Positions 6,925 through 15,537 of a DNA stretch of 15,537 nucleotides are shown in pieces. Each line of letters begins with the position of its first letter. The stretch's first letter is position 1. The stretch is from Pirellulales bacterium (lineage in GTDB: Bacteria; Planctomycetota; Planctomycetia; Pirellulales; JAICIG01). The notes beneath the pieces are model-generated. The model did not search any database and was not told the origin of the DNA. It saw nothing but the letters and a program-made list of their open reading frames with translations. The stretch is from contig JAICIG010000161.1 in assembly GCA_025924495.1 (NCBI GenBank), positions 1-15,537 of the forward strand, read 5' to 3'. The translations under genes and the position numbers were made by a program.

Positions 6925-7370
6925 CGGAGCAAATAGGAGCGGATCCAGCTCTTCAAGCGATATTTGGTGACACGCTGATTCATCGGGCTGGAGCGGTCGT
7001 TTCCGCAAGCGGCGAAATTCGGCTGCCAAGTTATTCGGCTGCCAAGTTATAAGCCAGCGGGCCATAAGGAATTTGATAATCGGCCGCATGGCGCCAAAGC
7101 AAAGCAACGCCCAGAGCTTGCCGGCGCCCGGCGGCGGAAAGCTGGCTGCAAAATAGGCGGCCGCATAAATCGGCCCGCCCCTGCGAACATGGCGGGTGCG
7201 CGTGAGGCTCGGCCGTCGTAATGCACGAGCGTCGCCCCGCTCGCGGAGATACGCTCATGCGCAATCGTCAAGGTAGCGAAATCAAGGTCGAGTCCCACTG
7301 CATAGGCGGATTTGCCGGCTAAATGCCGCAAGTGATTGCCAGGACCACAGCCGATATCCAAAAGCCCAGC
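6925..7370 (-). pseudogene. SAM-dependent methyltransferase remnant
   Basis: On the minus strand from about 7370, [17 protein letters not shown] is a clear class I methyltransferase motif I, followed by [18 protein letters not shown] (motif II region). The frame then loses protein character near RASRAPAMFAG. Downstream, another frame reads YQIPYGPLAYNLAAE and stops inside a 16-bp tandem duplication (7018-7049). Deleting one repeat copy joins it to FRRLRKRPLQPDESACHQ, which then runs into the end of the P-II gene without a stop. So at least two frame changes and loss of both ends are seen. Identification as a methyltransferase rests on motif I; the C-terminal part is less sure. Confidence 0.6.
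7018..7049. repeat. Perfect 16-bp tandem duplication
   Basis: TTCGGCTGCCAAGTTA occurs twice head to tail (7018-7033, 7034-7049). It lies in the methyltransferase remnant, where the extra 16 bases shift the frame and create a stop. Confidence 0.9.
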
Positions 7371-7371
7371 C

Positions 7372-7591
7372 GCCATTGCTTGGCAAGAACTTGGTCGCAT
7401 TCTCGAAGCCCAACAAGGCCAAGCTAATCTGCTTCAGGTAGTTGGCGCACGACGCGCGTCGTGCGGTCTCTCGCGACTGCTGCACCGCTGGCAACAGCAA
7501 GCTCATCCGCATGCCGATGATCGAAATCGCCACCAGCATTTCCATCAACGTGAAACCCGCACAATCGGCGTGACGCTTGCCAGGCTTTCAT
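7372..7591 (-). pseudogene. DUF1559 prepilin-type gene remnant
   Basis: On the minus strand, an N-terminal type IV pilin-like segment is plain: [16 protein letters not shown] with Glu at +5 after the putative prepilin peptidase site, then [20 protein letters not shown] and [19 protein letters not shown]. This is the hallmark of DUF1559 proteins, expanded in planctomycetes and normally about 300 aa. Here only about 70 codons remain. The likely ATG at 7591 (MKAW...) is one base out of frame with [13 protein letters not shown]. At about 7370-7380 the sequence passes into the methyltransferase remnant in a different frame. It is therefore broken at both ends. Confidence 0.78.
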
Positions 7592-8152: not shown

Positions 8153-8743
8153 GTGACTGAGGTCGCACGAGTAGAAACTCTTCGGCGCACGTCGGTCGCA
8201 ACGTTGAAGCCCGACGCAACACGCCTCGACTCACCTTGTTCGCCTGCCGATACGGTAAGCCAACGGCAGCTATTCAACATTTACGACTTCGTGTGCTTCG
8301 CGTTGTCACTCTTGTTACTCGCCGCCGCAGCGCTCAAGGGGCGCCAATTAGCAACCTCGCCTATCGCGGAAATAGGGTTGCTTACCTCGCGATGGTTCTG
8401 GATCGCAGTCGCCGAACTTGAGCTAGCGCTCGGAGTTTGGCTTCTCCTCGGGCCTTTTCAGAAAGTCGCGCGGAATGCTGCGATTGGATGTTTTGCGACG
8501 TTCGGCGCCACCTCGCTCTTTCGCGCTTTGAGCGGAGCAACCACTTGCAGCTGCTTCGGGAGCGTGGACGTCCCGCCTTTGTGGGCAGCGGTCCTCGATG
8601 CCGTCGCAGTTGCCTCGCTCGCGCTCGCGAGGCCGGCCTCGACTTCAGTCGCGATGAAAAACACCTGCGCTGGCTTTGCAGCGACGGCTCGCCCTCCTGG
8701 GTCGGCATTCGGCGCCTCGTATTGCCACTGCAATTCCCCTTGA
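8153..8743 (+). CDS. MauE/DoxX-like redox-associated membrane protein
   Basis: The 196-aa product has four hydrophobic segments (about 43-61, 80-100, 108-126, 142-160) and a conserved-type motif CSCFGSVDVPPLWAAVLD with Cys132 and Cys134 between helices 3 and 4. This is the pattern of MauE/DoxX-like proteins; MauE itself is required for methylamine dehydrogenase, a disulfide-rich periplasmic protein, so thiol redox work in the membrane is a fair expectation. The first ~40 residues are a polar extension. The only possible start is GTG at 8153 (in-frame stop at 8102), preceded by a GGGGTGAT stretch. The C-terminus after about residue 165 contains Cys172, Cys191 and Cys193 and may be poorly conserved. 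It is first in a five-gene + strand cluster; the next gene starts 35 bases on. Family call good, exact role inferred. Confidence 0.8.
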   Translation: MTEVARVETLRRTSVATLKPDATRLDSPCSPADTVSQRQLFNIYDFVCFALSLLLLAAAALKGRQLATSPIAEIGLLTSRWFWIAVAELELALGVWLLLGPFQKVARNAAIGCFATFGATSLFRALSGATTCSCFGSVDVPPLWAAVLDAVAVASLALARPASTSVAMKNTCAGFAATARPPGSAFGASYCHCNSP

Positions 8744-8778
8744 GTTTCGGCTGGAATCACGTTCCAAGGCATTTGCCC

Positions 8779-9339
8779 ATGAGGACGTCAATGAGGCGAA
8801 CCCGCCTGTTCTCAATCGCCCCGTCTGTCTTCCTCGCCGCAGTATGTTTGGCCGGTGCAGGGATCCTGACAGGCGCCTACTTTGTCGAATCCTCACGTGC
8901 CACGGACCTGTTATCGCTCCAAGTCCCGCACACGCGTACTTCCGCTGCTGATTGCGGAGCCACCTCTCTGTACATAATTTCACGGATTGCTGAGATCGAC
9001 CGAGACGTGTCTCTAGCTGAACTGCGATCGGCTACAAGAACCACACATCAAGGCACTAATATGTACGAACTAAAGCGCACTGCCGAGCAACTCGGCTTCC
9101 AGGTGGAGGCATACCGCTATTCCTTTGATGAATTAGCGCGTGTGCTCGAATCCGAGCGGCACGGTTATGCAATACTCTATTTGGACACAGCGCACTTCGT
9201 AGCTGCCATTCCATCGCCAGCTGCTAGCCACTTGCGATTGATCGATCCGACATGGGGAATCTTTGATGTATCCGAAGAGCAACTTGCCAATCGGTTTCAT
9301 TGGTCAGGCGTCGCACTGAATCTCACCCTGGCGCGATGA
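8779..9339 (+). CDS. Membrane-anchored C39-like cysteine peptidase
   Basis: The 186-aa product has a basic N-terminus and one membrane helix (about 11-34), then a papain-like C39 domain. Catalytic candidates are Cys59 (ADCGATSLY), His139 (TAHFVAAI) and Asp156 (LIDPTWG), in the order and spacing of peptidase C39. C39 domains normally sit at the N-terminus of bacteriocin ABC exporters and cut after double-glycine leaders on the cytoplasmic side. This one is stand-alone, without ATPase or exporter helices, and its orientation predicts the catalytic domain outside the cytoplasm. The Gln usually found six residues before the catalytic Cys is replaced (Arg53). The frame is open from 8437, but that part overlaps the MauE-like gene; ATG 8779 (or 8791) is chosen for the anchor. 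Two genes downstream is a protein with a GG leader-like motif. Confidence 0.82.
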   Translation: MRTSMRRTRLFSIAPSVFLAAVCLAGAGILTGAYFVESSRATDLLSLQVPHTRTSAADCGATSLYIISRIAEIDRDVSLAELRSATRTTHQGTNMYELKRTAEQLGFQVEAYRYSFDELARVLESERHGYAILYLDTAHFVAAIPSPAASHLRLIDPTWGIFDVSEEQLANRFHWSGVALNLTLAR

Positions 9340-9373
9340 ACGCTGTTAACGGCGAGCGACCTGGACGAATGCG

Positions 9374-9379
9374 AAGGAG
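9374..9379 (+). promoter_or_regulatory. Ribosome binding site deciding the GTG start at 9386
   Basis: AAGGAG lies 6 bases before GTG 9386. No other start codon exists in the frame between this point and the upstream stop at 9347-9349. Confidence 0.8.
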
Positions 9380-9385
9380 TCTTTT

Positions 9386-10396
9386 GTGGTCTTCCTGCTT
9401 ATTGCGCTCTGCCTCTCATGCGCTCTAGGGTGCGGACACGAGAGCGCTGAACTGGCCGACACCCCGGTCCGTTTCGACCCAGGCGATATATACGTAGGCG
9501 ATGTACCTGCTTTTGAAGAGATTCCGTTCGAAGCCAATTTAGTGAATAGCGCAGATTACCCAGTAAACATAAAGAGTATTGAAGTAACCTGTGCTTGCAC
9601 GGATGCCCGCGCATCTGCCGCCGTTATCCCACCCGGTGAGAATGTGTCAATCAGCGGACGCGTGCGCACTGGAGAGAAATCTCAATCCTTTCAACATAGC
9701 CTAGCGGTTCATATCGATGATCCTCGGCAACCGGTCGCAATCGTTTCTATACGCGGAACCACGAGACGTCTGATAACCGCCTCCTCCTCCGCGCCCCTCA
9801 GGCTTTCCCCTGATTTTGTCAATCGCACCGCCGATTCCGAAATCATCGTTTTCACAAATAATTCTCCTACCGCCGTAAAACTCCAACAGCCACTCAGCTT
9901 GCCGTCAGGTCTTTCGCTGAAGCTCCCAAACATGCCATTGCAGCCGGGAGCGTCCGCCGATGTGCAGATTATGGCGTCGCCAGTCTTTCCATCAAGCGTC
10001 ACATTGAAAGTTCGGATTCCGTGTTCGCACCCCCGGGAGAAGGATATCCCTGTGGACGTGTTGATCCGGCCCAAATCCGCTATCGAAGTCTATCCGAAGT
10101 CTATTCGATTCGGTGTGTCGCATAAGCGCGATATTCTGAGCCGCAAGTCTGTGACGTTAGTAATGCAGGGCGATAGTGTTACCTCGCTTGAACCGAGAAA
10201 AGCGACCCTTCCTGAATATCTGGAACTGAACGAGGATCGAATAATTAACCCCACCACCCGTCAGCTGTCGTTTACAATTCTTGACAGGTTTACAGAGCGA
10301 GTACTTATGTCGACAATTGAAATACCAGTCACTGCAGCCTCTTCTGGCGGCCGCGCCGTCATCCCAATTCCGGTCTCGGGAACACTTTTGGACTGA
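9386..10396 (+). CDS. DUF1573 domain exported protein
   Basis: The 336-aa product begins with a short hydrophobic signal (VFLLIALCLSCALGCG) that could be a lipoprotein signal with Cys16 as acceptor, although the lipobox is imperfect. Residues about 28-125 form a DUF1573 domain: FDPGDIYVGDV, then VTCACTDARASAAVIPPGE with Cys69 and Cys71, an immunoglobulin-like beta fold expected. The rest reads as further beta-sandwich repeats (for example LQPGASADVQI around 205, and a third unit to the end). DUF1573 proteins are common exported proteins of unknown function in planctomycetes and Bacteroidetes. GTG 9386 with AAGGAG is the only start. GC is clearly lower than in murJ: 10261-10320 has 24 of 60 GC by hand count, against 38 of 60 for 5041-5100. 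It sits between the C39-like gene (46 bases) and the Cys-rich gene (59 bases). Confidence 0.85.
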   Translation: MVFLLIALCLSCALGCGHESAELADTPVRFDPGDIYVGDVPAFEEIPFEANLVNSADYPVNIKSIEVTCACTDARASAAVIPPGENVSISGRVRTGEKSQSFQHSLAVHIDDPRQPVAIVSIRGTTRRLITASSSAPLRLSPDFVNRTADSEIIVFTNNSPTAVKLQQPLSLPSGLSLKLPNMPLQPGASADVQIMASPVFPSSVTLKVRIPCSHPREKDIPVDVLIRPKSAIEVYPKSIRFGVSHKRDILSRKSVTLVMQGDSVTSLEPRKATLPEYLELNEDRIINPTTRQLSFTILDRFTERVLMSTIEIPVTAASSGGRAVIPIPVSGTLLD

Positions 10397-10455
10397 GTGT
10401 CCGCCTTCTGCTGCTCCACCGGTGTCTCCTATTCCTCTCTTTTCGGAGTGAGTCA

Positions 10456-10977
10456 ATGTACCGTTATCTCCGCATCTTCGGCTGTTTCTGCGTACCATTA
10501 CTTTTGGTAGTAATCTCGCATCATTGGAGCAAGCCCGCTCACGCCCACCACGAGAAAAGCCCGCTCGACGATATAACGCTCGTGGCGCTCACTGGCGGGC
10601 AATCTGGCGCGTTGTTTTGCGAGGAGATTTCTAACATTGCGGGTACCGATTGCGCGGACTACACGTACGACGGAGAATGCCCGACAGTGACAGACGGCGG
10701 GGGCCCCTGCCAAAACGTCGGAGACGTCTGCGATAATTGGCTTGAGCCGCAGTGGCCCGAACAATGCACAGAGACAGGAGATCCCATGAAGAAATGTCAG
10801 TCGCTTATCTTTGAGTGTGTCGTATGCACGATAAGTCATCACTGCAAATGCTCGTTGGTCGCGGGTCAAGGGCTTCAATGCCAAGAATGGAGTAAAACAC
10901 TCCTAGAGAGCACACTTCAAACCAGTTCTGCCTGCCAAAACACCGTCGACAATGCGATACCAAATGCCTGCCGGTAG
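10456..10977 (+). CDS. Exported cysteine-rich protein with double-glycine-like motif
   Basis: The 173-aa product is not from a family I recognise. It has a signal peptide (basic start, hydrophobic 9-20, AHA near 28-30). Directly after this, residues 37-48 read LDDITLVALTGG: Leu at -12, -7 and -4 relative to the GG end, the pattern of double-glycine leaders cut by C39 peptidases. The remaining ~125 residues contain 14 Cys (55, 66, 75, 85, 92, 104, 114, 121, 124, 130, 132, 142, 160, 172), an even number suited to seven disulfides, with clusters CVVC and CKC. The ATG has GGAG 7 bases upstream. A C39-like peptidase and a MauE-like redox protein lie in the same cluster, making this the probable substrate. 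The function of the mature protein is unknown; a secreted effector, structural protein or cofactor-carrying subunit are all possible. Confidence 0.8.
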   Translation: MYRYLRIFGCFCVPLLLVVISHHWSKPAHAHHEKSPLDDITLVALTGGQSGALFCEEISNIAGTDCADYTYDGECPTVTDGGGPCQNVGDVCDNWLEPQWPEQCTETGDPMKKCQSLIFECVVCTISHHCKCSLVAGQGLQCQEWSKTLLESTLQTSSACQNTVDNAIPNACR

Positions 10978-11048
10978 CTGATCGCGCCGGTTGGCACGAT
11001 GTGCAATTACTGTACGTCCGTTACTGTAATAATAAGCGAGAGAATGGC

Positions 11049-12089
11049 ATGTCTTTACCATGGATTATGCCTCTGTTTGTCGCTCTGTGGAACGGCGAGC
11101 CTGAGGGGCAGGAACAACAAGTCTTCGCATTAGCCAGAGAGGCGTTCAGCGCGAGCGTTCATGGCTTACATTCTGGCATTGGCAAGGGCACATTTCGGAA
11201 GCATCTTAGCGCTCAAGGCCGGCATGATGACGTGGCGGCCGAGCTCACAGTGTACCTGGATGCCGGCAAGTATCATATTCGACTGGACTACGAACCGCCA
11301 GTAGACGGCTTGACGCGCGAGATTCTAATTTACGATGGCGCCGATGTTATTCATGCACGGTTTTCCGAGCGGTACACGCCCACTGGATGTGACGTCGCGG
11401 TTAGGAGCAGCCATTCCGGAACCGGTTTTCCTAACTGGAATCCATGGCGACTGGCCGCGGAATTGTTTGATTTCGAGGCGGCAGGCTCGACGGTGAAAGA
11501 AAGTGACATTGCCTTTCGGAAGGTGTCGACTGATGGCTATGAGGGACGTTACAAGCTCGCGAATGTTACAGTGAAGCTGTCGGTCGACGCCAAGTTCGGC
11601 TTTAACGTCTCGCGAGTGCAGGCGTTTAATGGGGCGGACGTGCTTCCCGCGCAAACCGTAAGCGCAAGCTACGGCAAATCGGATGAACTGTGGTATGTGA
11701 AGTCGCTGTCGATTGAGATGGGCTCGCGCAAGCCCAATCAGGACTCGGTGCAACTGATCTATGATGAATTCAAGGTAAACGTCCCAGTGCCGGCAGAGGT
11801 GTTTACAATTGCGGCTCTTGAGATTCCGGACGGCACGAGAGTTGCGGATCGTCGGCCGAATACCCCACACGATAAATATATATTCGCGGAGCCAAGGCAG
11901 TCAGACTTGTCGAGAGTTGACAGTCTGATCGAAACGGTCAAACAATTGCCAAAGCAAGGTTCGAGGCCAAAGGCTAATGCAAGTTCGCGCAGGGATGTGT
12001 ACATTGTGAATGCGGCGGCGCTGCTGGCGATAAGTATCGCACTTATGATTTGCCGGTGGAGGCGCCGAGCCGCCCTAACGACGTCGTAG
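11049..12089 (+). CDS. LolA-like exported protein with C-terminal membrane helix
   Basis: The 346-aa product begins with a weak signal-like segment (MSLPWIMPLFVALW). The central part alternates beta strands (for example ELTVYLDAGKYHIRLDY, ILIYDGADVIHARF) and ends VNVPVPAEVFTIAALEIPDGTRVADRRP, a form often seen in planctomycete proteins annotated as outer-membrane lipoprotein-sorting-like. The LolA fold assignment is therefore tentative. The last ~35 residues are a basic linker, a hydrophobic helix (about 318-336, YIVNAAALLAISIALMICRW) and an Arg-rich tail, which resembles a C-terminal membrane or sorting anchor. The frame is open from 11001; ATG 11049 with GAGAG upstream was preferred, but the N-terminal start is not certain. 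It is last in the five-gene cluster, 71 bases after the Cys-rich gene. A role in processing or holding the Cys-rich protein is guesswork. Confidence 0.75.
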   Translation: MSLPWIMPLFVALWNGEPEGQEQQVFALAREAFSASVHGLHSGIGKGTFRKHLSAQGRHDDVAAELTVYLDAGKYHIRLDYEPPVDGLTREILIYDGADVIHARFSERYTPTGCDVAVRSSHSGTGFPNWNPWRLAAELFDFEAAGSTVKESDIAFRKVSTDGYEGRYKLANVTVKLSVDAKFGFNVSRVQAFNGADVLPAQTVSASYGKSDELWYVKSLSIEMGSRKPNQDSVQLIYDEFKVNVPVPAEVFTIAALEIPDGTRVADRRPNTPHDKYIFAEPRQSDLSRVDSLIETVKQLPKQGSRPKANASSRRDVYIVNAAALLAISIALMICRWRRRAALTTS

Positions 12090-12594: not shown

Positions 12595-13312
12595 ATGGTG
12601 GGAAATCAGGCGACTTTGCGGGGGGCGCATTAGCGGCAACTGATGGAAGGTCATAGCTGATGCAGTTGCCTTCACAATCTTTTCGGAACCGAATGCGCGT
12701 CTTGTCGAGGTTCTTGTTTAATTCGGCAACGAGTTCGCGAATTCGTTGGGCCGGATTGCGTTGATCGCCGCCTGGCAGAGCAAGTTCAAGCGGCGCCTGC
12801 CATTCGGCGGCCTGAAAGGCATCCAGGGCCGCCCACTGCGCTTGCGCGCGACGCGTGAAGCGTTTGGCGAGTTTACCGTCGACCCACAGTTCGTGCCGCT
12901 CCCGATCCCAGCGGATGCGATCTGCAGGGCGCGAATTGGCTTCGCTCGAGCCGAGCCTCACCGGCTCTGGCACGCAATTAACTCCGTGAAGGGCGACATA
13001 GATCTTCCCGCCGTGCGACAGGACAAAGCAAGCCGCCTCGGCCAGCCTCAACGAACTTACCGTTTGGAACGAGCGCCGAGAGTCGCCGTTTTGCGTGATT
13101 TCATGAAGCTGCGAGACATACCGCTGTGCGACCAGCCAGCGAAGGTCGCTCTCCGTCGCACCGGCATCCGTCAAGCTTTGCCTGGTGACGGCAAACTGAT
13201 GCACATCTTGTCCAGCATCCTCAGCGTCTTCCAGTGCCTGCTTGAGCAATTTCAAGGCGGCGATCTTGCCGCTGCTCAAGGATGCCGCGTGTACCGCTCC
13301 GTTGCCCGCCAT
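12593..13312 (-). CDS. Hypothetical protein, possible C-terminal winged-helix domain
   Basis: The 239-aa soluble product has no signal peptide. Residues about 15-100 are mainly helical (KIAALKLLKQALEDAEDAG, then TDAGATESDLRWLVAQRYV), in the style of a helix-turn-helix. After a small beta section (KIYVALHGV) and a linker, residues about 132-228 read WDRERHELWVDGKLAKRF, then QAQWAALDAFQAAEW and PAQRIRELVAELNKNL, ending in a RIRFRKDCEGNCISYDL hairpin. This helix-helix-hairpin layout is like a winged helix and recalls hypothetical planctomycete proteins, but I cannot name a family. The ATG at 13312 has AGGTGA close upstream. The C-terminal tail is Pro/Ala-rich and disordered. It may be a DNA-binding protein; no target is evident. 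Confidence 0.72.
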   Translation of the reverse strand: MAGNGAVHAASLSSGKIAALKLLKQALEDAEDAGQDVHQFAVTRQSLTDAGATESDLRWLVAQRYVSQLHEITQNGDSRRSFQTVSSLRLAEAACFVLSHGGKIYVALHGVNCVPEPVRLGSSEANSRPADRIRWDRERHELWVDGKLAKRFTRRAQAQWAALDAFQAAEWQAPLELALPGGDQRNPAQRIRELVAELNKNLDKTRIRFRKDCEGNCISYDLPSVAANAPPAKSPDFPP

Positions 13313-13719: not shown

Positions 13720-14862
13720 TCAATCGAGCCAGTCTTGCCGCCTCAACCGCTCGGGCACATATTGCTCGGTGACGTAGCTGATGTCTTTGCTGACGAGCGA
13801 TTCGACTTCGAGCTTGAAGCCGTTGACGATCATCTGCTGGATCTCTTTCTGCCAACCCTTGTGATGAGCAAACCAGGGGTAGCTGGCGATCTGCTTGGCG
13901 CGCTTCACGTCGCTGTCGTTGAGCTGAATCTTGACGCTGTTGGAGAGCTTGCAACGATCGAAGTCGATGGAGCGCAGGCCCAGGTATTTGGCGTCCGGGA
14001 TTGCCATTCGCGTACTTTCGAAGGCCAGGTTGATCGAGCCCTGCTTGAGCACGCTGTAGATGTAATACCCCCACGGGTCGTTATCCAGCAGGCAGTAGAC
14101 CGGCAGCTTCAGTTCGTTATGCAACCGGTGCAATAAACGCCGCACGCCGCGCGGCGGCTGGCCGGCGCCGTGCGTCAGCAGGCACTTGTGCTCGCGCCAG
14201 AACTTGTCTTCGTTGAAACGGCGCCAGACCGTGTCTTTTTCCACGTGCAGGATGAACTTGGCGTCGCACTTGCGGAACTGGATTATGTCCGGCTCGACGA
14301 TCGACGGGATACTGTAGCCGGCCGAACCCATCCTCGCGCAATCAATCTCGTCGCCATCGTCGATGAGCGTTAGCGAGCCGACCAGGTTGCCGCGGTTCGA
14401 GGCGAAGACACGCAACTCTTCGCGCAGGGCGCCGAGCGTCACTTCGACGTCTTCGATCACCGGGTCGCATTCGTCCTGATCGGCGAACGTCTCTTCCTTG
14501 GTGCCTTCGATCGTGTGCTTCAGCAGGTAATAAAGACCTCGGATGCTGGTCGACTTTTGCTGATCAATCAGCTTCTTGCAGCCGCTGGCCACCAGCAGCG
14601 TCTGCATATAGGCCTTGGCCTGCGACACGTTGAACAACTGCCGGCGGTTTTTGTTGCCGCCCATCTCGATGAACCGCTTGGTCTTGTTGTATTTGACGTT
14701 CGACAGCGCCCGGGCCGGAATATCCAGATGCGGTTCTTTCTTGCGATCGGCCGCCGTGACGACGCCATCGGCGAGATCTCGCAGGTCTTTGAGCGTTTTC
14801 TTATCGCGTGCGCTGGGCGCCGCGGTTGCCGTCTTGCCAGTGGAGCGTGACTTTTTAGCCAT
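13720..14862 (-). CDS. top6A: DNA topoisomerase VI subunit A (Spo11-like)
   Basis: Topoisomerase VI is a type IIB enzyme that passes one duplex through a transient double-strand break; subunit A cuts DNA through a tyrosine and is the relative of Spo11. The 380-aa product has a basic disordered N-terminus (1-20), a winged-helix (CAP-like) domain with STSIRGLYYLLKHT and the catalytic tyrosine at the YY pair 111-112, and a Toprim domain with Glu208 (LHVEKDTVW) and the acidic pair Asp260/Asp262 (LLDNDPWG) for magnesium. All catalytic residues are kept and the length is normal for the family, so it looks active. The ATG at 14862 follows a weak GGAA site. Subunit B lies upstream on the same strand, 113 bases away, with an inverted-repeat element between. 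The enzyme is typical of archaea and plants and sporadic in bacteria. Confidence 0.95.
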   Translation of the reverse strand: MAKKSRSTGKTATAAPSARDKKTLKDLRDLADGVVTAADRKKEPHLDIPARALSNVKYNKTKRFIEMGGNKNRRQLFNVSQAKAYMQTLLVASGCKKLIDQQKSTSIRGLYYLLKHTIEGTKEETFADQDECDPVIEDVEVTLGALREELRVFASNRGNLVGSLTLIDDGDEIDCARMGSAGYSIPSIVEPDIIQFRKCDAKFILHVEKDTVWRRFNEDKFWREHKCLLTHGAGQPPRGVRRLLHRLHNELKLPVYCLLDNDPWGYYIYSVLKQGSINLAFESTRMAIPDAKYLGLRSIDFDRCKLSNSVKIQLNDSDVKRAKQIASYPWFAHHKGWQKEIQQMIVNGFKLEVESLVSKDISYVTEQYVPERLRRQDWLD

Positions 14863-14903
14863 GAAATTCCGTTCGCGGTGTTGAATGCGATAGCAATGCT
14901 GAA

Positions 14904-14980
14904 TGTAGGTTATGCTTCAGCATAACGCTCTTCATCGATGTAAATTATTTCATGCAAGCTATGCTGAAGCATAACCTACA
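14904..14980. repeat. 77-bp element with 21-bp perfect inverted repeats
   Basis: The left arm (14904-14924) contains GTAGGTTATGCTTCAGCATA and the right arm (14960-14980) is its exact reverse complement; 35 AT-rich bases lie between. Each arm itself holds the near-palindrome TATGCTTCAGCATA. It fills most of the gap between top6B and top6A, and the TAG stop of top6B (14976-14978) is part of the right arm. It may be a small mobile element (MITE- or REP-like) or an RNA hairpin that sets the ratio of the two subunits. No other copy was seen in the window. Confidence 0.85.
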
Positions 14981-15537
14981 AGTCTGAGGTCTTTATTTTC
15001 GCGCCCGCAGTCTTCTTCTCGGCGGGCTTCACGTCTGCGGTGGCCGCCGCCGGTTCTTCCTCGGGCTGCTTGATAATCAAGACGTTGTCGCCGAAATCTT
15101 CTTCCTCGTCGACGACTTTGCGGCCCCGGTCGTCGAACTTGGCATCGGCCTCTGCCGTCTTGCGCTTGGCGACATCCATCAGCCGGTCGTAAAGCGCCTT
15201 GCGATCCGACTGATTGATTTCGCTGACTGCCGTGGCGACTTCGCCCAGGTAGCGAAGGAACAGGCTGCGCCGCTCGCCTTCCTGCTTGACTTTCAATCGT
15301 CGCCGCAAATACATGTTCAACTTGCGCCCGACCGCTTGCAGCGCCAGCCGCAGCTCCTTCTGAATCTCCGGATATGAAGCGACGGCCTCTTTCGATTCGC
15401 TGGTGAACGGCACCCAGACGCTGGCGATGTGGACCATGATGGTCACCGGCCCGCTCGGCAGGCCGCCGCGCGACTGGCTCAGTCCGTAGGCGCGCCAATT
15501 CGTGCTGGTGATCGTCTGCGTGATGGCGCAGGCGCCC
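14976..15537 (-). CDS. top6B: DNA topoisomerase VI subunit B, C-terminal part
   Basis: The gene is cut by the right edge; the last 186 codons are visible. Subunit B supplies the GHKL ATPase and transducer domains that drive strand passage with subunit A. The visible part begins in the transducer: TNWRAYGLSQSRGGLPSGP, then MVHIASVWVPFTSESKEAVA, the characteristic C-terminal Top6B motif, and a helical block (EIQKELRLALQAVGRKLNMYLRRR). After LRYLGEVATAVSEIN a tail of about 60 residues is acidic then Lys/Ala-rich and probably disordered. The frame is open to the window edge; the GTG at 15446 is internal and not the start. The stop lies inside the inverted-repeat element, so the last residues may have been altered by its arrival. 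The ATPase domain cannot be checked here. Confidence 0.93.
   Translation of the reverse strand, partial: GACAITQTITSTNWRAYGLSQSRGGLPSGPVTIMVHIASVWVPFTSESKEAVASYPEIQKELRLALQAVGRKLNMYLRRRLKVKQEGERRSLFLRYLGEVATAVSEINQSDRKALYDRLMDVAKRKTAEADAKFDDRGRKVVDEEEDFGDNVLIIKQPEEEPAAATADVKPAEKKTAGAKIKTSDL

Follow-up and report, generated by a model that had tools for sequence, protein, structure and literature searches.

The five-gene cluster of the window

The window analysed here is a stretch of 15,537 nucleotides from a Pirellulales bacterium (contig JAICIG010000161.1), and our subject is a cluster of five forward-strand genes within it, at 8153..12089, encoding a MauE-family membrane protein, a C39-type peptidase, a DUF1573 protein, a Cys-rich precursor and a LolA-like protein. 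The gaps between the genes, taken from the coordinates of the window's open reading frames (ORFs), are 35, 46, 59 and 71 bases, in agreement with a sequence-only reading of the same DNA that had singled out the cluster. The five genes are one version of a recurrent planctomycete gene module, and this module is wider than the earlier reading supposed, since it also takes in DUF1559 pseudopilin-like proteins and two further families, here called F1 and F2.

The first gene (8153..8743, +, GTG start) encodes the MauE-family protein, which has 196 residues and a CSC motif, scores 35.6 bits against the curated Pfam cut-off of 27 for MauE (PF07291; E 1.3e-8) and lacks the thioredoxin-like segment that some of its relatives have. 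The second (8779..9339, +) encodes a standalone C39-type peptidase of 186 residues with an N-terminal anchor, recognised by both Pfam and Foldseek; Peptidase C39 (PF03412), at 60 bits against a cut-off of 22 (E 2.8e-16), is the only family above cut-off in this protein, and no ATP-binding cassette (ABC) transporter domain is joined to it. Its predicted catalytic residues align with the Cys, His and Asp of the family, which are invariant in an alignment of 25 sequences, and are encoded on the + strand at 8953-8955 (Cys), 9193-9195 (His) and 9244-9246 (Asp). The third gene (9386..10396, +, GTG start) encodes an exported DUF1573 protein of 336 residues with an immunoglobulin (Ig)-like domain and a CAC motif (PF07610, 39.6 bits against 26.1, E 5.6e-10); it also matches the NCBIfam family OS_HP2 (seleno)protein at E 1.8e-8, under the cut-off of that family. 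The identities and motifs that the sequence-only reading had given to these three proteins are thus borne out by Pfam scores and by the translations.

The fourth gene (10456..10977, +) encodes a Cys-rich precursor of 173 residues that matches no Pfam or NCBIfam family. It would consist of a Sec-type signal peptide at residues 1-30 (10456..10545, +), with a computed hydrophobic core and a boundary placed by eye at AHA (28-30), a double-glycine-type leader at residues 31-48 (10546..10599, +) ending in Gly47-Gly48, and a predicted mature protein at residues 49-173 (10600..10977, +). The precursor has 16 Cys, and the 14 described earlier are those downstream of the Gly pair. The fifth gene (11049..12089, +) encodes the LolA-like exported protein (346 residues), which has a C-terminal hydrophobic helix and a basic tail and whose homologues adjoin C39 genes at loci L089, L123, L090 and others.

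Recurrence beside standalone C39 genes

Queried singly against a set of 5.8 billion proteins, the window's Cys-rich protein and C39 protein matched the window alone, and a single-sequence scan of genome_contigs found no relative of the Cys-rich protein. A profile of 25 C39 sequences matched the window and four other entries of the same protein set, the 7999 candidates sharing most words being scored. Searched against 196 genomes of the order of a Pirellulales metagenome-assembled genome (MAG), the window C39 matched six at E 1e-5; three of the matches are short standalone frames (G062, G190 and G175), adjoined at each locus by DUF1573, LolA-like and Cys-rich genes, and the other three lie in frames of 740-822 residues, of which one was viewed. 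The Pirellulales MAG has a weak standalone C39 match (E 1e-3) that is likewise accompanied by genes for DUF1573, LolA-like and Cys-rich proteins. Searching 397 genomes of the class with a profile built from five C39s gave matches in 112, with exporters and standalone genes mixed, and searching 392 genomes of the phylum with the profile of 25 gave matches in 134. Among plasmids, a tblastn search with C39 gave 409 records, the 20 listed being peptidase-ABC exporters (e.g., CvaB) or records without an annotated feature.

From the listed matches we drew, in rank order and leaving out lower-ranked ones, a first sample of 40 standalone ORFs (171-320 residues), 20 long ORFs (712-1793 residues) and 20 others (19 of approximately 385-582 residues and one of 217). 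Nineteen of the 20 long ORFs, the exporters of the comparisons below, were scanned; all 19 combine C39 with ABC_tran, 17 also have ABC_membrane and nine carry cyclic-nucleotide-binding domains. At standalone C39 loci, DUF1573 and LolA-like genes each lie on the C39 strand, no more than 4 kb away, in 22 of 40 cases, versus none at the 20 exporter loci (Fisher test for 22/40 vs 0/20, p 9e-6, genome kinship ignored), counts that favour the standalone loci to some extent because the hidden Markov models for both families were trained partly on them. Clustering of neighbours within 4.5 kb recovered three further families, F0 (22 of 40 standalone loci), F1 (8 of 40) and F2 (9 of 40), each at 0 of 20 exporter loci. 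F0 is, judged by its family matches, the DUF1559 pseudopilin-like family; in a set of 19 members termed A6 (ten F0, six F1 and three F3), ten match DUF1559 and eight have an N-methylation motif. F2 is an apparent second LolA-like group (hhalign probability 90%), with a weak match to MucB (E 0.12).

In a tree of 125 C39 domains, 68 loci belong to a clade that we call the module clade. The five core partners considered were LolA-like, DUF1573, DUF1559 pseudopilin-like, F1 and Cys-rich precursor genes, counted when fused to C39 or when located on its strand no more than 4.5 kb away. Two or more of them occur at 54 of the 68 clade loci versus 1 of the 57 C39 loci outside, and one or more at 65 of 68 versus 5 of 57, by partner profiles trained partly on these loci; a DUF1559-type gene lies near C39 at 33 of the 68. 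All five families of the window recur in the same order in L089 and all are present in L251, where three of them are fused, while L090 has four of the five together with a thioredoxin-like protein (seen by eye; the Pfam match is under cut-off). The reverse search points the same way: a profile of seven Cys-rich sequences matched 7 of 397 genomes, four being training loci and three new (L251, L252 and L253), and each new locus has a C39 ORF with DUF1573, LolA-like, F1 or DUF1559 genes nearby. In L252 the C39 match is confined to the second half of the profile, and its frame also has a stretch whose LolA_like match is weak and sub-threshold (E 0.064). The expectations that the five families would be found together elsewhere, and the Cys-rich protein next to C39, have accordingly held. 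At 64 of 80 topoisomerase VI (Topo VI) loci, used as a second control, every partner profile scored 0 of 64, and Cys-rich ORFs chosen by rule occurred at 6 of 64 (with the Gly pattern, 1 of 64); exporter loci are the preferred control because the Topo VI set represents one repeated gene neighbourhood. We are nearly certain that the module is real and conserved, and no description of it was found in the literature searched, most subscription journals and preprints lying outside the reach of that search.

The composition of the module varies. Two C39 genes are present in each of L134 and L158, and clusters of the L134/L158/L159 group have two or three LolA-like genes. F3 large membrane proteins lie near modules in L127, L133, L145, L159, L192 and L197, and PMT_2 mannosyltransferase matches in 2 of the 19 A6 members make glycosylation of the product possible. 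One module-clade C39 is fused in a single frame with a DUF1559 pseudopilin-like protein (L195:6595-8211, +). Outside the clade, C39 stands behind cyclic-nucleotide-binding domains, with no ABC parts, in L183 (3481-4635, -) and L194 (4616-5926, +). The window's own cluster has no intact pseudopilin gene; a short pilin-like ORF at 7285-7548 (-), with a weak GspG match, resembles a DUF1559 N-terminus by eye and is perhaps a decayed copy. On the other side of the cluster, 12596-13312 (-) encodes an unannotated protein of 239 residues that matches (BLASTP E 1e-9) the product of a gene just upstream of the L088 module; this L088 homologue clusters with an L123 gene, and the window protein is possibly linked to the module. 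Topoisomerase VI is encoded at 13723-15446 (-), by the A subunit gene and a portion of the B subunit gene; the A subunit is 82% identical to that of the Pirellulales MAG, its best match among the 80 loci retained, and has at least 573 relatives in genome_contigs, mostly from planctomycete MAGs among the matches listed.

Leader, compartment and proposed maturation route

The choice of secreted Cys-rich ORFs at module loci took account of hydrophobic core, length and Cys content and disregarded Gly; several of the 39 obtained are doubtful. A leader motif (D/E at -6, a hydrophobic residue at -2, and Gly) is present in 21 of the 39, versus a mean of 3.0 and a maximum of 9 in 1000 shuffles, although in two of the 21, those of the window and L124, the matching site is not the Gly pair; when G[GASR] is demanded, 16 of 39 match. 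Among other secreted ORFs the motif occurs in 1 of 57 at these module loci and in 6 of 100 at Topo VI loci; among Cys-rich ORFs it occurs in 0 of 6 at Topo VI loci and in 0 of 3 at exporter loci. A looser candidate, GG anywhere, was set aside as hardly informative (26 of 39, vs a shuffle mean of 16.3 and a maximum of 26). In an alignment of 21 precursors selected by hand the first Gly is invariant (21/21), and seven invariant Cys are common to seven aligned precursors, the window's included. The window precursor is a distant member of this group, with BLASTP E values of 2e-4 to L089 and 0.003 to L123 and z values against shuffles of 3.8 and 5.9, respectively (the L123 precursor being cut at a wrong upstream site); no z signal was seen with L090 or L124. 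A PDB profile search with the Cys-rich alignment returned nothing up to E 1, and Pfam and NCBIfam scans of 21 members gave only scattered single weak matches. The products are fast-diverging, a pattern that would suit a part in competition, signalling or surface display.

A model of the window C39 made from five sequences (predicted local distance difference test score, pLDDT, 70) matched best, by Foldseek, 6mpz (E 1.2e-8, target-normalised template modelling score 0.73-0.77), a double-glycine protease crystallised with its leader. On the strength of the leader, the gene association, this fold and the conserved Cys, His and Asp, we consider it quite probable that the C39 protein cuts the double-glycine leader. 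In the window, cleavage would fall after Gly48, in a leader that matches the motif loosely.

The position of the peptidase relative to the membrane can be judged from topology and fusions. Among 50 module C39s, counted with uncurated gene starts, a hydrophobic segment precedes the catalytic Cys in 41, the N side being more positive, as expected, in 29 of these, and another follows the C39 domain in 33, the far side being more positive, again as expected, in 26. C39 is fused to DUF1573 at 11 loci, in nine of which both domains exceed Pfam cut-offs (L187, L196, L197, L124, L185, L186, L193, L198 and L200); the others are L251 and L253. The frame in L251, of 829 residues, comprises MauE (23.7 bits, under the cut-off of 27), a thioredoxin-like segment with CPRC, C39 and DUF1573; downstream of it come genes for a Cys-rich precursor, a LolA-like protein and DUF1559. 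This fusion is the strongest single piece of evidence that C39 is outside the cytoplasm. Because of the topology and the fusions, we predict with high confidence that the module C39 works outside the cytoplasm; the earlier proposal of a Sec-dependent, non-cytoplasmic route, unlike that of ABC exporters, gains support from both.

It is probable, as far as sequences can tell, that the cluster is a Sec-dependent maturation module. The Cys-rich precursor would leave the cytoplasm through Sec by means of its N-terminal signal. Outside the inner membrane, MauE, joined to a thioredoxin-like segment in some relatives, and the CxC-bearing DUF1573 protein may aid the formation of disulfides. The anchored C39-type cysteine peptidase, predicted to face the periplasm, would cut after the leader and free the mature protein. 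The anchored LolA-like protein might then hold the product or pass it towards the cell surface, and the DUF1559 pseudopilin-like protein of about half of the related loci might share this step. That MauE and DUF1573 serve oxidative folding we hold to be slightly favoured; that the pseudopilin-like proteins take part in export is possible but on the doubtful side.

Alternatives, significance and known systems

Several observations weigh against the maturation route. The window's leader has the Gly pair and the hydrophobic residue at -2, but its acidic residues stand at -8/-9 from the first Gly, not at -6, and at exporter loci the leader motif was found in 5 of 27 non-Cys secreted ORFs (shuffle mean 1.8). 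The LolA-like protein of the window has no Pfam or NCBIfam family, and against PDB profiles it gave a non-significant match, 'outer membrane lipoprotein-sorting protein', at E 0.19; of its earlier description, the hydrophobic C-terminal helix stands and the LolA label lacks Pfam support. With a pLDDT of 37, its single-sequence model was unsuitable for a fold search. The module clade is split off by a branch with a support of only 0.69. A second sample of 40 more standalone loci, which followed the ranking approximately, passed over some loci and drew in part on genomes sampled before, was scored with frozen profiles and contained DUF1573 at 5 loci, DUF1559 at 5, LolA-like at 3, F2 at 2, F1 at 2 and Cys-rich precursors at 9; these counts are low because 30 of the 40 loci fall outside the module clade. 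MauE is present at only 4 of the 68 clade loci, and the clade has lost the Gln six residues before the catalytic Cys.

In one alternative, leader and peptidase act as proposed and MauE and DUF1573 have no part in oxidative folding: DUF1573 would support the peptidase as an Ig-like scaffold, and the Cys-rich proteins would fold by general Dsb-type enzymes or bind metal. The scarcity of MauE, the fusion of DUF1573 to C39 and the eight F1-type standalone loci that carry F1 and have no DUF1573 in the listed neighbourhood are all in keeping with it. Against it stand CxC in 34 of 40 DUF1573 matches (by a loose pattern that picks another site in some), the selenocysteine-containing DUF1573 relatives with a UGC motif tabulated in PMC9312934 and PMC13188914, and the joining of MauE to thioredoxin-like segments. 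Such segments, all recognised by eye, form a tail of MauE in L089 and L200, where Pfam supports the MauE part alone; MauE relatives exceed the Pfam cut-off in L089 (37.8 bits) and L197, and the MauE part of L200 is under it (24.2 bits). Literature matches listed for MauE with disulfide, thioredoxin or maturation contained nothing relevant. We regard the scaffold explanation as unlikely, although it is the likeliest of the alternatives.

A second alternative is that the C39-type protein is not a peptidase and is instead a leader-binding tether or chaperone, or catalyses another thiol reaction such as transpeptidation to a surface acceptor. The residue in question is the Gln six positions before the catalytic Cys, which we take to be the oxyanion-hole residue. 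It is absent from the window C39 and present in 2 of 59 module C39s, versus 19 of 19 readable exporters and 36 of 44 other C39s; the eight others without it (L143, L188, L189, L199, L201, L202, L213 and L228) all lie inside the module clade. By clade, Gln is found in 2 of 67 readable C39s inside and 55 of 55 readable ones outside, the position being unreadable in L151 and L181 (no Cys in the column) and in one more (L211, judged by its short upstream stretch). This loss supports the clade independently of the branch value; equally, because all 55 readable outside C39s keep the residue, the activity of the module C39s is not assured. The fused C39 of L251, which is not in the tree, apparently lacks the expected His (by eye), and, according to PMC5557850, type 1 secretion is known to include C39-like domains devoid of catalysis. 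On the other hand, of 59 module C39s all have the Cys, 58 the His and 55 the Asp, none of which a pure binding domain would need. We judge this alternative improbable and still prefer cleavage by C39.

That the peptidase is cytoplasmic and serves an ABC exporter encoded elsewhere, its hydrophobic N-terminus being merely an anchor, would accord with the usual place of exporter C39 domains on the cytosolic face (PMC5557850). Against this placement stand the fusions of C39 to DUF1573 and to MauE-thioredoxin-like segments, the flanking charges and the signal peptide ahead of the leader, and on this evidence we rate it as highly unlikely. That the five genes are unrelated planctomycete envelope genes placed together by chance has a negligible probability: DUF1559 and DUF1573 are indeed common (in six genomes, at least 611 copies of DUF1559, with 54 to 130 scored per genome, and 54 of DUF1573, some below cut-off), yet DUF1559 would be expected by chance at approximately 0.07 per locus, and these families are repeatedly found as neighbours in other genomes, in fusions too, and not beside the 20 exporter-type C39 genes, so that the counts already contradict it.

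Extending the preferred Sec-dependent route, we tentatively propose, with somewhat less confidence than for a part of the pseudopilins in export, a new maturation and display system of Planctomycetia for hypervariable Cys-rich proteins with tandem Sec and then double-glycine signals. The Gln-less C39, tied in some species to a MauE-thioredoxin-like-DUF1573 relay, would process the precursors in the periplasm, and DUF1559 pseudopilins would push the folded product through the envelope. If true, this would explain part of the large number of DUF1559 genes in planctomycetes; DUF1559 (SBP_bac_10) is, to our knowledge, a large planctomycete family without a known role, and its link to a C39 module was not found in the literature searched. 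Secretion routes of planctomycetes are poorly known, and here a leader-peptidase pair appears to have been relocated across the membrane and joined with Sec export and disulfide chemistry. DUF1573, DUF1559 and the unannotated Cys-rich proteins can thereby be studied within one shared, testable framework, and the absence of Gln poses a well-defined question of enzymology.

Double-glycine leaders and C39 peptidases are standard parts of cytoplasm-facing ABC exporters. The module shares with the peptidase-containing ABC transporters PCAT1 and ComA the C39 fold, the Cys, His and Asp and a double-glycine-type leader; it differs from them in that its C39 has no ABC domains, is predicted to be non-cytoplasmic and has lost the Gln at -6, and in that its leader sits behind a signal peptide. 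MauE functions in the maturation of Mau methylamine dehydrogenase, where, as in the window, a MauE-family membrane protein accompanies a Cys-rich exported protein. Unlike in that system, MauE is optional in the module, and a general Pfam scan of ten window ORFs revealed no other mau gene.

The nearest precedent is FapD of the Pseudomonas functional-amyloid system, a periplasmic C39 protease required for amyloid secretion (PMC5557850). As described in that 2017 paper, no canonical C39 leader occurs in the Fap proteins, the target of FapD was unclear and C39 peptidases of its class were yet to be characterised. The window C39 does not belong to the FapD family itself, scoring 11.4 bits (E 0.14) against an NCBIfam cut-off of 330 for NF058616. 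FapD and, by prediction, the module C39 have in common a C39 fold placed outside the cytoplasm by a Sec signal, together with Sec-exported partners (PMC5557850). Unlike the Fap system, the module has substrates with a double-glycine-type leader and many Cys, and its partners are DUF1573, LolA-like and DUF1559 proteins; FapD thus gains a comparison system in which the leaders are visible.

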